From Herbidospora cretacea (lineage in GTDB: Bacteria; Actinomycetota; Actinomycetes; Streptosporangiales; Streptosporangiaceae), in contig NZ_BBXG01000004.1 in the NCBI RefSeq assembly GCF_001570605.1, positions 124,001-188,000 of the forward strand: a stretch of 64,000 bases of DNA, read 5' to 3'. The translations under genes and the position numbers were made by a program. This document shows, one piece after another, positions 7,262 to 10,225 of this stretch. Below the pieces are notes generated by a model. It had not been told where the DNA came from, searched no databases, and saw only the letters and a program-made list of their open reading frames with translations. Each line of letters opens with the position of its first letter. Within the stretch, counting starts at the first letter, position 1.

Positions 7262-8116
7262 ATGAGTCGAATCGGGTTAAGGGCGGCGCTCGAACTGGTG
7301 CGCGCCCCGGCCACCCTGTCTGTCCCCGGTGACACCATGGCGGGCGCCGCGCTCGCCGGGCGCGGCGGGACCCCCGCCCTGGCGGCGGCCTCAGTGCTGC
7401 TCTATTGGGCCGGGATGGCGCTGAACGACTGGGCCGACCGGGACATCGACGCGATCGAGCGGCCCGAGCGGCCCATCCCGTCGGGCCGGATCTCGGCCAA
7501 CCAGGCGCTCGGCATCGCCGCCGGGCTGACCGGCGCCGGGATCGCCGTGGCCGCCGCGGCGGGCGGGAAGAAGGGCTTCGTCATCGCCGGCCTGCTGGGG
7601 GCGGCGGTGTGGGCGTACGACATGGGACTGAAGCACACCCCGGCCGGTCCGGCCTCGATGGCGGCCTGCCGCACGCTCGACGTGATGCTCGGCGCCGGGC
7701 GGGTGACGCCGATGGCCTTCGCCGTCGGCGCGCACACCTACGGCATCAGCATCCTGGGCCGCGCGGAGGTGGCCGGCGCCGACGAGGCGACGGTCCGGGG
7801 CGCTCTGGCCTGCACGGCCGCCGCCACCGGCCTGGCGGCCGTCTCGGTCGCCCGGGGTGCGGGCTCGGCCGCCGACAAGGCCACCGCGGCCGCCCTCGTC
7901 GCCGGATACGCCGCCAGCGGCGGCCGGGCGACGCTGGCGCTGCGCGGCAAGCCCGACCCCGAGCAGGTGCGCCAGGCGGTGCGCGCCTCGATCATGGGCT
8001 TCGTGCCCCTCCAGGCGGCGGCCGTGGCCGGGGGAGGCAAGACCCGCAGCGCGCTGGGCCTGGTGGCCGCGCTCCCGGTGGGCCGCTGGCTCTCGTCCAA
8101 GATGTCGACCGCATGA
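7262..8116 (+). CDS. UbiA-superfamily prenyltransferase (ebo-type / SCO3242-like)
   Basis: Polytopic membrane enzyme of the UbiA family that should transfer a prenyl chain to an acceptor. The first Asp-rich motif reads NDWADRDID in ALNDWADRDIDAIERPERPIPSG, the family's diphosphate/Mg site. The second is weaker: AYDMGLKHTPAG around residue 120. 284 residues, about eight spans. The ATG at 7262 is preceded by GGAAG; a TTG one codon earlier is less likely. It overlaps the TIM-barrel gene by four bases. In ebo clusters, linked to export or handling of specialised metabolites, such a prenyltransferase accompanies a TIM-barrel protein and a phosphodiesterase-like protein, as here. The natural substrate is unknown. 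Confidence 0.82.
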   Translation: MSRIGLRAALELVRAPATLSVPGDTMAGAALAGRGGTPALAAASVLLYWAGMALNDWADRDIDAIERPERPIPSGRISANQALGIAAGLTGAGIAVAAAAGGKKGFVIAGLLGAAVWAYDMGLKHTPAGPASMAACRTLDVMLGAGRVTPMAFAVGAHTYGISILGRAEVAGADEATVRGALACTAAATGLAAVSVARGAGSAADKATAAALVAGYAASGGRATLALRGKPDPEQVRQAVRASIMGFVPLQAAAVAGGGKTRSALGLVAALPVGRWLSSKMSTA

Positions 8117-8922
8117 ACTTCGGTTACTGCTCCAACGGGTTCCGCGACCACTCCCTGGACGACGCGCTCACCGTGCTCGCCGACCTGGGCTACACCGGGG
8201 TCGCGCTCACCCTCGACCACGGCCACCTGGGCCCCGACCCGGCCTTCGACGAGGTCAGCCGGGTCGCCACCCGGCTCGGGCGGCTGGGCCTGTCGGTGGT
8301 CGTCGAGACGGGCGGGCGCTACACCCTCGACCCGTTCCGCAAGCACTTCCCCACGTTGCTGCACGACGACGCGGGGGCGCGGGTCTCGTACACGAAGAGG
8401 GCGATCGAGGTCGCGGCCGACCTCGGCGCCCCGGTCGTCCACCTCTGGAGCGGCATCCGCCCTGCGGAGGTGTCCGACGCCCTCGCGTGGGACCGGCTGA
8501 CGGCCCACTGCGAGACCCTCCTGGCCCATGCCGAGGAGCACGACGTCGTGCTCGGGTTCGAGCCCGAGCCCGGCATGCTCGTCGACGACCTGGCCTCCTA
8601 CGAGCGGCTGCGCAAGCGGCTGGGGGAGCCCGGCCGGTTCGGGCTGACCCTCGACATCGGGCACTGCCGGTGCCTGGAACCCTGGCCGGTCGCCGAGTGC
8701 GTCCGGCGGGCGTCGCCCTACCTGGTCCACGTGCAGATCGACGACATGCGGCGAGGTGTCCACGAGCACCTGGAGTTCGGCGACGGAGAGATCGAGTTCG
8801 CGCCCGTCCTGGCGGAGTTGCGCGAGTTCGGCGGGATGATCGCGGTCGAGCTGGCCCGGCACAGCCACGCCGCACCGGCGGTCGCCCAGAGGTCCATCGA
8901 TTTCCTCAGAGGATTGCGATAA
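8113..8922 (+). CDS. TIM-barrel sugar-phosphate isomerase/epimerase-like protein
   Basis: Member of the xylose isomerase-like TIM-barrel (AP endonuclease family 2) superfamily. The ATG at 8113 overlaps the prenyltransferase stop (ATGA); a longer upstream frame is Arg/Gly shadow sequence. 269 residues. Visible barrel motifs are the N-terminal FGYCSNGFRDHSLDDAL, GFEPEP (metal-ligand Glu), LTLDIGHC (Asp/His pair) and a C-terminal IAVELARHSH (Glu/His). These are the usual metal positions, so the protein is probably catalytically competent. Together with its neighbours it forms a three-gene unit resembling part of the ebo system. The reaction is unknown. Confidence 0.82.
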   Translation: MNFGYCSNGFRDHSLDDALTVLADLGYTGVALTLDHGHLGPDPAFDEVSRVATRLGRLGLSVVVETGGRYTLDPFRKHFPTLLHDDAGARVSYTKRAIEVAADLGAPVVHLWSGIRPAEVSDALAWDRLTAHCETLLAHAEEHDVVLGFEPEPGMLVDDLASYERLRKRLGEPGRFGLTLDIGHCRCLEPWPVAECVRRASPYLVHVQIDDMRRGVHEHLEFGDGEIEFAPVLAELREFGGMIAVELARHSHAAPAVAQRSIDFLRGLR

Positions 8923-8926
8923 AACG

Positions 8927-10225
8927 ATGCTGGTTATCAACGTGGTCGGGCTCACGCCCCGGCTGCTCGCCCATATGCCCAACGTGTCGAAACTGGGCAA
9001 CGCCGCCGCTCTCACGCCGGTGCTGCCCGCGGTGACCTGCTCGGTGCAGGCCTCCATCGTGACCGGCGCGATGCCCCGCGACCACGGCATCGTCGGCAAC
9101 GGCTGGTACTTCCGCGACCTCGGCGAGGTCTTCCTGTGGCGCCAGCACAACGCCCTCATCCAGGGCGAGCAGATCTGGGACGTCACCCGAGACCTGAAGA
9201 CCGCCAACATCTGCTGGTGGTACGCCATGGGCACCGACTCCGACTTCGTGGTGACCCCCCGCCCGATCTACCACGCCGACGGCGCCAAGTCGCCCGACGC
9301 CTACGTCCGCCCCCCGGAGTGGCACGACCGGCTCACCGGTTCGCTCGGCGAGTTCCCCCTGTTCACCTACTGGGGCCCGAACGCCGGCATCACCTCGTCG
9401 AACTGGATCGTGGGCGCCACCCGCAAGATCATCAACGAGGAGCGGCCCGACCTCACGATGGTCTACATCCCGCACCTCGACTACGACCTCCAGCGCTTCG
9501 GCCCCGACTCCCCGCAGGCGATCGCCGCCGCCAAGGCCGTCGACACGGCCCTGGTCCCGCTGCTCGACGAGAACCCGGTGATCCTCTCCGAGTACGGCAT
9601 CACCAACGCCTCCAAGGCCGTCGACATCAACCGCGCCCTGCGCCGCGAGGGCCTCCTGGAGGTCTACACCCAGGTCGGCATGGAGTATCTCGACCCGTGG
9701 ACCAGCCGTGCCTTCGCGGTGTCGGACCACCAGATCTCCCACGTCTACGTCCGCGACTCCGCCGACATCCCGCGCGTCCGCGACCTGATCGCGGGCCTCG
9801 ACGGCGTCGACGAGGTCCTCGACCAGGCCGGCAAGGAGAAGTACGGCCTCGACCACGAACGCGCCGGGGAACTGGTCGCCGTGGCCGAGCCCGACGCCTG
9901 GTTCACCTACTACTACTGGCTCGACGACGACCGCGCCCCCGACTTCGCGAAGCTGGTCGAGATCCACCGCAAGCCCGGCTACGACCCCGCCGAGCTCTTC
10001 ATGACCAGCAAGGCGATCGCCGCCAAGGCGCTGCTGCGCAAGAAGATGGGCTTCCGGTACGAGATGTCGGTCGTCCCCCTCGACCCCAAGCAGGTCAGCG
10101 GCAGCCACGGCCGCCTCCCCGACTCGCCCGAGGACGGCCCGGTCCTCATCGGCCCGTGGGACGGCGAGAGCTACCACGCCACCGACGTGAAGGACCTGCT
10201 GCTCAAGGAGCTGCGCCGGAGCTGA
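8927..10225 (+). CDS. Alkaline-phosphatase-superfamily (nucleotide pyrophosphatase-like) protein of ebo type
   Basis: A 432-residue member of the type I phosphodiesterase/nucleotide pyrophosphatase fold. The nucleophile region is PAVTCSVQASIVTG, followed by PRDHGIVGNGWYFRD and a PHLDYDLQRFGPD segment. Three canonical metal-ligand positions look changed. The N-terminal Asp of VVDG-type motifs is replaced in MLVINVVGLTP. The usual S-D-H-G motif reads LSEYGI. The late His motif SGSHGRLP is kept. I recall related actinobacterial proteins with the same SEYG, so this may be a family trait rather than decay. It starts four bases after the TIM-barrel gene and is the last gene of the unit. Substrate unknown; true hydrolase activity is uncertain. 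Confidence 0.8.
   Translation: MLVINVVGLTPRLLAHMPNVSKLGNAAALTPVLPAVTCSVQASIVTGAMPRDHGIVGNGWYFRDLGEVFLWRQHNALIQGEQIWDVTRDLKTANICWWYAMGTDSDFVVTPRPIYHADGAKSPDAYVRPPEWHDRLTGSLGEFPLFTYWGPNAGITSSNWIVGATRKIINEERPDLTMVYIPHLDYDLQRFGPDSPQAIAAAKAVDTALVPLLDENPVILSEYGITNASKAVDINRALRREGLLEVYTQVGMEYLDPWTSRAFAVSDHQISHVYVRDSADIPRVRDLIAGLDGVDEVLDQAGKEKYGLDHERAGELVAVAEPDAWFTYYYWLDDDRAPDFAKLVEIHRKPGYDPAELFMTSKAIAAKALLRKKMGFRYEMSVVPLDPKQVSGSHGRLPDSPEDGPVLIGPWDGESYHATDVKDLLLKELRRS

Follow-up and report, generated by a model that had tools for sequence, protein, structure and literature searches.

A predicted MIPS-type variant of the ebo gene cluster, divided between two loci in Herbidospora

The DNA considered here (the window) is a stretch of 64,000 nucleotides from Herbidospora cretacea (NCBI RefSeq assembly GCF_001570605.1, contig NZ_BBXG01000004.1, positions 124,001 to 188,000 of the forward strand), and our subject within it is a compact unit of three genes at 7262-10225, encoding a UbiA prenyltransferase, a TIM-barrel protein and an alkaline-phosphatase-superfamily protein, which we call C, E and F. 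Almost certainly they make up half of a variant ebo system that is complete with seven genes, and in which a myo-inositol phosphate synthase (MIPS) stands in for EboD, the 3-dehydroquinate synthase (DHQS)-like enzyme; the other half, consisting of MIPS, EboA, EboB and EboE, is encoded elsewhere in this genome, at a second locus. Taken as a whole, the best explanation, and one that we consider probable, is a split MIPS-type ebo system whose UbiA protein prenylates a MIPS-derived ring. The gene content, the split throughout the genus, the single operon of relatives, the co-occurrence of the genes and the failure to find EboD are all direct readings of genome sequence. Since EboD and linkage in one cluster were both looked for and neither was found, we file the system as an ebo variant and not as a canonical member.

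The window holds the following features, all on the + strand:

7262..8116, + strand: C, SCO3242-family UbiA prenyltransferase (EboC-like), 284 amino acids; NF045897 and Pfam UbiA
8113..8922, + strand: E, xylose-isomerase-like TIM-barrel protein, 269 amino acids; PF01261
8927..10225, + strand: F, EboF-type alkaline-phosphatase-superfamily protein with a changed metal site, 432 amino acids; PF01663
8113..8116, + strand: ATGA stop/start overlap of genes C and E, read from the sequence
8923..8926, + strand: four-base gap between genes E and F, read from the sequence

The UbiA gene starts with an ATG, with an in-frame TTG three bases upstream, and the coupling by a four-base overlap and a four-base gap, which a preliminary description of this DNA had pointed out, is confirmed at 8113-8116 and 8923-8926. 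All three proteins score above the Pfam cut-offs (C, UbiA, 61.3 bits; E, AP_endonuc_2, 118.2; F, Phosphodiest, 190.9), and their assignment in that description to the ebo type has held up: F shares 45.5-52.5% identity with its counterparts in five DHQS-type ebo clusters, and C reaches 318.8 bits on the NCBI SCO3242_trans model NF045897 (cut-off 260), with 121.9 bits on the NCBI EboC model NF035940, under its cut-off of 250. The EboC cut-off is a narrow one, since the Roseivivax UbiA protein, from a DHQS-type cluster, likewise falls below it (85.8 bits). In C, residues N55, D56, D59, D63, Y119, D120, K124, R137 and D140 are unchanged across nine aligned sequences; in E, residues E152, D183 and H186 are present in 91/91 rows and E248 in 88, the other three being gapped (numbering from the L046 fragment, two higher than in the window protein). 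When six frames of the whole window were searched with profiles for all seven ebo-type proteins, C, E and F alone were matched, in agreement with the earlier statement that no TatD-type, EboA or DHQS-like gene surrounds the unit, which has an oligopeptide-type ABC transporter upstream and a two-component system downstream.

What did not survive is the view of the unit as a reduced system, for EboA, the TatD-type EboB and EboE are encoded behind a dedicated MIPS at C1:366047-369807, in a single run of genes on a different contig from the window. In the stretch fetched around them (L034) they read:

L034 9048-10196: MIPS; PF07994, 177.1 bits
L034 10193-10795: EboA; NF035938, about 169.1-169.7 bits (cut-off 50), with the profile match at C1:367366-367767
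L034 10798-11655: TatD-type EboB; PF01026, 60.7 bits (cut-off 27)
L034 11657-12808: EboE; NF035939, 432.6 bits (cut-off 250)

The four genes are closely packed, with MIPS directly upstream of EboA. The EboA model NF035938 finds this single match in the whole genome (the protein is under the cut-off of the narrower model NF035937, at 82.5 vs 320 bits), and identity between EboB and the TatD-type proteins of the five DHQS-type clusters is 39.9-61.3%. The preliminary description had named EboA, TatD-type and DHQS-like partners as the ones to seek in the rest of the genome; the first two are there, and the third is not, a MIPS occupying its place in this lineage. EboD, which had been noted as missing from the unit, was not found anywhere in this genome, where the sole DHQ-synthase match is AroB, scoring 333.9 bits on the AroB model (cut-off 305) vs 171.5 on NF004852 (cut-off 333) and encoded beside genes that by eye resemble aroC and aroK. 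As a control, the proteins at the EboD position of the five DHQS-type clusters score 531-571 bits on NF004852.

Both halves occur in 7/7 Herbidospora genomes searched, C-E-F at one locus and MIPS-EboA-EboB-EboE at the other, with the EboA and UbiA genes on different contigs in every one, so the single cluster found in most relatives is replaced throughout the genus by two loci. The C-E-F order is kept in all seven, the flanking reading frames have equal sizes in six sister loci, and the ABC-transporter and response-regulator neighbours are homologous at three of these (L046, L080 and L081); such conservation, flanks included, means that C-E-F is no chance arrangement. One might of course suppose that this tight and physically separate unit is a reduced ebo system in its own right, able to modify or carry a prenylated metabolite with no need of EboA, EboB or EboD, and a metagenome bin (L096) with MIPS, C and EboB alone does hint that reduced sets exist. 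We give that idea the slimmest of chances, since the same seven genomes retain EboA, EboB, EboE and the dedicated MIPS, and since the SCO3242-type UbiA is accompanied by EboA in 71/71 class genomes. Indeed, the retention of all seven genes in Herbidospora in spite of their being unlinked argues that they serve one pathway.

In other actinobacteria the two halves are generally one operon. Relatives were collected by a GTDB genome scan with a UbiA alignment, of which the best 80 of 558 confirmed matches were taken, together with 13 further loci, to give 93; genes at these loci were counted by six-frame profile searches, and the counts are not independent, identical or nearly identical DNA having been counted twice (L042/L195, L086/L182, L080/L045, L081/L040 and L118/L123). 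All seven proteins are found at 74 of the 93 loci, in the order MIPS-C-E-EboA-EboB-EboE-F, with an additional E match before or after in 12 of the 74 and repeated EboE matches in one. E and EboA share a single reading frame at 16 loci (14 of the full ones and two from Lentzea), and of the four loci with no separate E match, three (L101, L117 and L143) show EboA matches 1.4-1.6 kb long, consistent with such a fusion, the fourth being L112. The 19 loci short of the full seven include eight Herbidospora C-E-F loci and one Herbidospora MIPS-half locus, as well as L156, which lies near a contig end. At L096:8886-11697, from a Streptosporangiaceae metagenome bin, MIPS, UbiA and EboB are accompanied by no match to E, EboA, EboE or F in 20.8 kb, and on this example a truly reduced or broken ebo version may exist.

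The association also holds when it is sought without regard to position. A sample of 296 genomes from the class contains 71 with EboA, every match above cut-off, and the SCO3242-type UbiA is found in the identical 71 (70 above cut-off, the remaining match, in G103, being cut by a contig start); the hypergeometric p of 3e-70 for this overlap ignores relatedness and is descriptive only. The two genes are adjacent in 67 of the 71, the exceptions being the two Herbidospora genomes of the sample together with two others, G103 and G243; in G103 and G243 the separation is likely to be a contig break, as the UbiA match lies no more than about 1 kb from a contig start. PF07994 MIPS is found in 73 of the 296, namely all 71 EboA genomes plus G102 and G121, and adjoins EboA in 67. 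NF004852 was above its cut-off in none of the 296, and the weaker match present in 280 of them (219.6 bits at most) is as expected for AroB and its kin.

Could the MIPS simply feed general inositol metabolism and stand beside EboA by chance, the ebo-type proteins having nothing to do with cyclitols? The enzyme is a common one, PF07994 MIPS occurs without EboA in two class genomes, and in two others (G056 and G218) it is beside neither EboA nor UbiA. Against this, Herbidospora cretacea has a separate housekeeping MIPS, on contig C2, with 669.5 bits on TIGR03450 (mycothiol_INO1; cut-off 638), a model on which the ebo MIPS scores 36 bits. PF07994 had given one match in this genome, and the notion that the ebo MIPS is its sole or housekeeping MIPS was rejected once PF01658 had revealed the C2 gene. 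The ebo MIPS is of a distinct type, matching Archaeoglobus MIPS (1u1i) at 257.7 bits and 1gr0 at 35.9, is present in all 71 EboA genomes and adjoins EboA in nearly all of them, never shares a locus with EboD, and is found paired with ebo-type genes again in two haloarchaea, so that we consider a chance association very improbable. Four Lys and one Asp that align with 1u1i, and that we take to be the catalytic residues of MIPS, are identical in 79/79 ebo-type MIPS proteins long enough to align, and two of these five positions are sites where 1u1i differs from 3qvw and 3qvx, presumably active-site mutants. From its sequence, then, the ebo MIPS looks both dedicated and active.

DHQS-like enzymes and MIPS have unrelated folds, and the two appear to alternate in the same slot: among 97 loci, an ebo-type MIPS is found in 85, EboD in five and both together in none. 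The DHQS-type clusters, recognised by a '3-dehydroquinate synthase' gene, were read on plasmids of Roseivivax, Deinococcus, Mycetohabitans, Aureibacter and Azospirillum; a gene for a ferritin-like protein lies just upstream of the clusters of Mycetohabitans and Aureibacter (L162:48-1106 and L163:636-1904), and Streptomyces accounts for 28 of the 55 plasmid records with a match to F. Four haloarchaeal plasmids match F at 36-38% identity, and the two examined, from Halocatena salina and Natronococcus sp. (L164 and L167), carry inositol-3-phosphate synthase, UbiA, sugar-phosphate-isomerase-like TIM-barrel proteins, TatD and F, with neither EboA nor EboE annotated in the two clusters. The Herbidospora MIPS is 45% identical to each of the two haloarchaeal ones. 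Genes for a BMP-type ABC transporter are found near both haloarchaeal clusters; one of the two also has a ThuA-domain gene close by, the other a PQQ-dependent sugar dehydrogenase. We think it important that one slot is used by two different ring-forming enzymes, of which one is an inositol-phosphate synthase of a well-understood type; this supports the cyclitol idea and makes the precursor a defined, labellable compound.

What, then, might the seven proteins do together? MIPS would convert glucose-6-phosphate to inositol phosphate or a closely related compound, this cyclitol might then be reshaped by EboB and the two TIM-barrel proteins, and the membrane UbiA protein would join a polyprenyl chain to it; EboF, with its alkaline-phosphatase fold and changed metal site, might bind or process a phosphorylated intermediate, and EboA could keep the complex together, as has been proposed for Nostoc (PMC6282210). 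A prenylated inositol-type lipid, that is, a prenyl-linked cyclitol, has in our judgement slightly less than an even chance of being the product. By analogy with the proposal for the Nostoc ebo genes, the likeliest role for it would be to aid the passage of small metabolites across the membrane, although we are rather doubtful even of this one.

Many UbiA enzymes prenylate aromatic rings, and this suggests another acceptor for the same seven-gene system: inositol from MIPS might be oxidised and then dehydrated by inosose-dehydratase-like TIM barrels to a polyhydroxybenzene, which on prenylation would give a new quinone-like lipid. In keeping with this, E has a weak similarity to the myo-inosose dehydratase IolE (22.6 bits), Gfo/Idh/MocA dehydrogenases occur within the fetched stretch of 34/78 clusters, and a flavobacterial relative of EboC acts on an aromatic acid, 8-HQA (PMC9235831). 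The IolE match is, however, far under the model's cut-off of 290, and the NAD-binding MIPS is the sole dehydrogenase among the seven core genes, so that we regard the aromatic route as improbable and continue to favour a cyclitol acceptor.

The F protein deserves particular attention. Aligned to the phosphonoacetate hydrolase 1ei6, whose D-H pair, His, Asp and Thr we take to be metal-site or active residues, F has E-Y in place of D-H and Gln in place of the His four residues past the conserved Asp, with the Thr kept. E-Y, Gln, Asp and Thr, plus a Val at what is presumably the position of the first metal-binding Asp in other family members, are conserved in 95% or more of the 89 F relatives compared, and among nine F proteins drawn from DHQS-type clusters, actinobacterial MIPS-type clusters and haloarchaea, SEYG is present in all nine and the second place is never His (Gln in eight, Leu in Halocatena). 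The canonical ligands of a two-metal type I phosphodiesterase are thus absent from F, and judging by these alignments EboF is unlikely to be an ordinary two-metal phosphodiesterase in any of the cluster types. If we allow ourselves to speculate, ebo might be a general machine for a prenyl lipid with a sugar-derived ring as its head, fed by a DHQS-like cyclase in one lineage group or by MIPS in actinobacteria and haloarchaea, with a polyprenyl-inositol or quinone-like lipid of the MIPS branch as a membrane carrier and an EboF chemistry other than two-metal hydrolysis; in this full form we hold it to be possible and on the unlikely side.

How the Herbidospora split arose can be approached through trees of each half, built from the 32 loci common to both data sets (36 had been chosen, of which L181, L184, L187 and L133 were dropped, with genes missing in one or both halves); the MIPS-half alignment comprised MIPS, EboB and EboE, with EboA left out. 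These are quick trees, and the groups tested were picked after the trees had been seen. In the C-E-F tree Herbidospora stands beside eight Nonomuraea/Microbispora-type rows with a support of 100 (starred), and a constraint that holds the 12 neighbouring rows together without Herbidospora is rejected (p-AU 8e-8); in the MIPS/EboB/EboE tree it falls outside the Nonomuraea/Microbispora clade, a placement that is not starred, and the constraint of Herbidospora with the eight rows is modestly rejected (p-AU 0.035). This suggests that the two halves had different histories, clearly so for C-E-F and modestly for the MIPS half. Most likely, the split arose from two copies of the operon with complementary gene losses. 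Two operons, each with all seven genes, are found in Nonomuraea jabiensis (L082 and L087), and each of G085, G115 and G235 has at least two UbiA matches. One could instead suppose that C, E and F moved out of one ancestral operon, with no complementary loss from two copies, which makes a second copy unnecessary and sits well enough with the modest rejection in the MIPS-half tree. Such a move would have to pick out genes 2, 3 and 7, for which one cut is insufficient, and it fares badly with the grouping of C-E-F among the Nonomuraea/Microbispora rows while the MIPS half lies outside that clade, and with the several relatives that have two operons; we therefore think it unlikely, and complementary loss fits best.

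The surroundings of the cluster vary. A gene for a polyprenyl synthetase (PF00348, 161.7 bits for the L091 protein), a kind of enzyme that supplies prenyl donors, comes immediately after F at 18 of the 78 named loci outside Herbidospora and lies within the fetched stretch in 21. Other frequent neighbours among the 78 are GSDH (sugar-dehydrogenase-like; 39), a sugar-type permease (39), ThuA (38), a ROK regulator (38) and the Gfo/Idh/MocA proteins already mentioned; these need not be functionally linked to the cluster, and none of them is found at the Herbidospora loci searched. After EboE, at L034:12805-15293, are genes for a CopC-like protein, a small lipoprotein that by eye resembles cupredoxins and a multi-pass membrane protein, which are present at the MIPS-half locus in 7/7 Herbidospora genomes. 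Outside the genus, the other loci searched gave CopC-like matches in L102 and L105 only, and the three were dropped as members of the system. On a Streptomyces sp. NBC_00019 plasmid, typed as mobilizable, a seven-gene MIPS-type operon (L165:1020-12479) is bordered by genes for a ScyD/ScyE family protein and a multicopper oxidase, an arrangement reminiscent of scytonemin clusters; such neighbours are found at none of the 78 other loci, and both were rejected as parts of the system.

A number of observations weigh against the reading of C-E-F as half of a complete, cyclitol-prenylating system. The gene set is not always whole: L112 has no E match, L096 holds only three of the seven genes, and the fetched stretches of L122 and L146 (Lentzea) and L109 (Streptomyces ureilyticus) contain no MIPS, L148 having neither MIPS nor E; to these may be added the MIPS without EboA in G102 and G121 and the MIPS located elsewhere in G056 and G218. 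On the chemical side, the substrate of a UbiA protein is not readable from sequence, the flavobacterial relative of EboC takes an aromatic acceptor, the MIPS relative 6k96 is named as a five-membered-cyclitol-phosphate synthase, which is to say for another cyclitol, and the changed metal site of EboF speaks against a standard phosphodiesterase step. The polyprenyl synthetase link is lineage-bound, with most of the 18 loci belonging to Micromonosporaceae by their genus names, and the gene is absent at both Herbidospora loci. Lastly, the evidence that the MIPS half has had its own history is modest, coming from quick trees, a group chosen post hoc and an unstarred placement.

Among the open-licence papers listed by our searches, which mostly did not extend to subscription journals, we found no description of a MIPS-type ebo system and no ebo product reported since 2016, although NCBI annotation already names the single proteins of the MIPS-type cluster. 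The ebo cluster (eboABCDEF) was named in 2016 (PMC5133447), with an isoprenoid-cyclitol product proposed from EboD and EboC; the same paper gives split operons in Arenibacter and Adhaeribacter, genomes without eboD in Leeuwenhoekiella and two Planctomycetes, and eboG in operons that lack eboA, and it remarks, as 'data not shown', that actinobacterial EboA is fused to a xylose-isomerase-like (TIM) protein. In Nostoc, deletion mutants show that the scytonemin monomer fails to reach the periplasm if any one of eboA, B, C, E and F is lost (PMC6282210). The word "inositol" appears nowhere in the main text of either paper.

Like the ebo operon (PMC5133447), the system described here is a conserved operon that combines relatives of EboA, EboB, EboE and EboF with a UbiA protein and a sugar-phosphate-cyclising enzyme; unlike it, MIPS takes the place of the DHQS-like EboD, the UbiA protein is SCO3242-type, there is an extra TIM-barrel protein and, in Herbidospora, the genes are at two loci. 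The UbiA family owes its NCBI name to SCO3242 of Streptomyces coelicolor, and SCO3243 is listed as a MIPS, but the two are given there as genes of the calcium-dependent-antibiotic cluster and not of ebo (PMC3610822). The partner fused to EboA at the present loci is a relative of the window gene E, in line with the actinobacterial fusion of PMC5133447, where the remark on it mentions neither a MIPS nor the full gene set. Finally, UbiA-297, the flavobacterial EboC relative that farnesylates 8-HQA in vitro, is like our protein the UbiA of ebo-type clusters, with an actinobacterial genus, Saccharomonospora, among those mentioned (PMC9235831); that cluster is described with EboD, and aromatic acceptors were tested, whereas the Saccharomonospora locus in our set (L108) is of the MIPS type.

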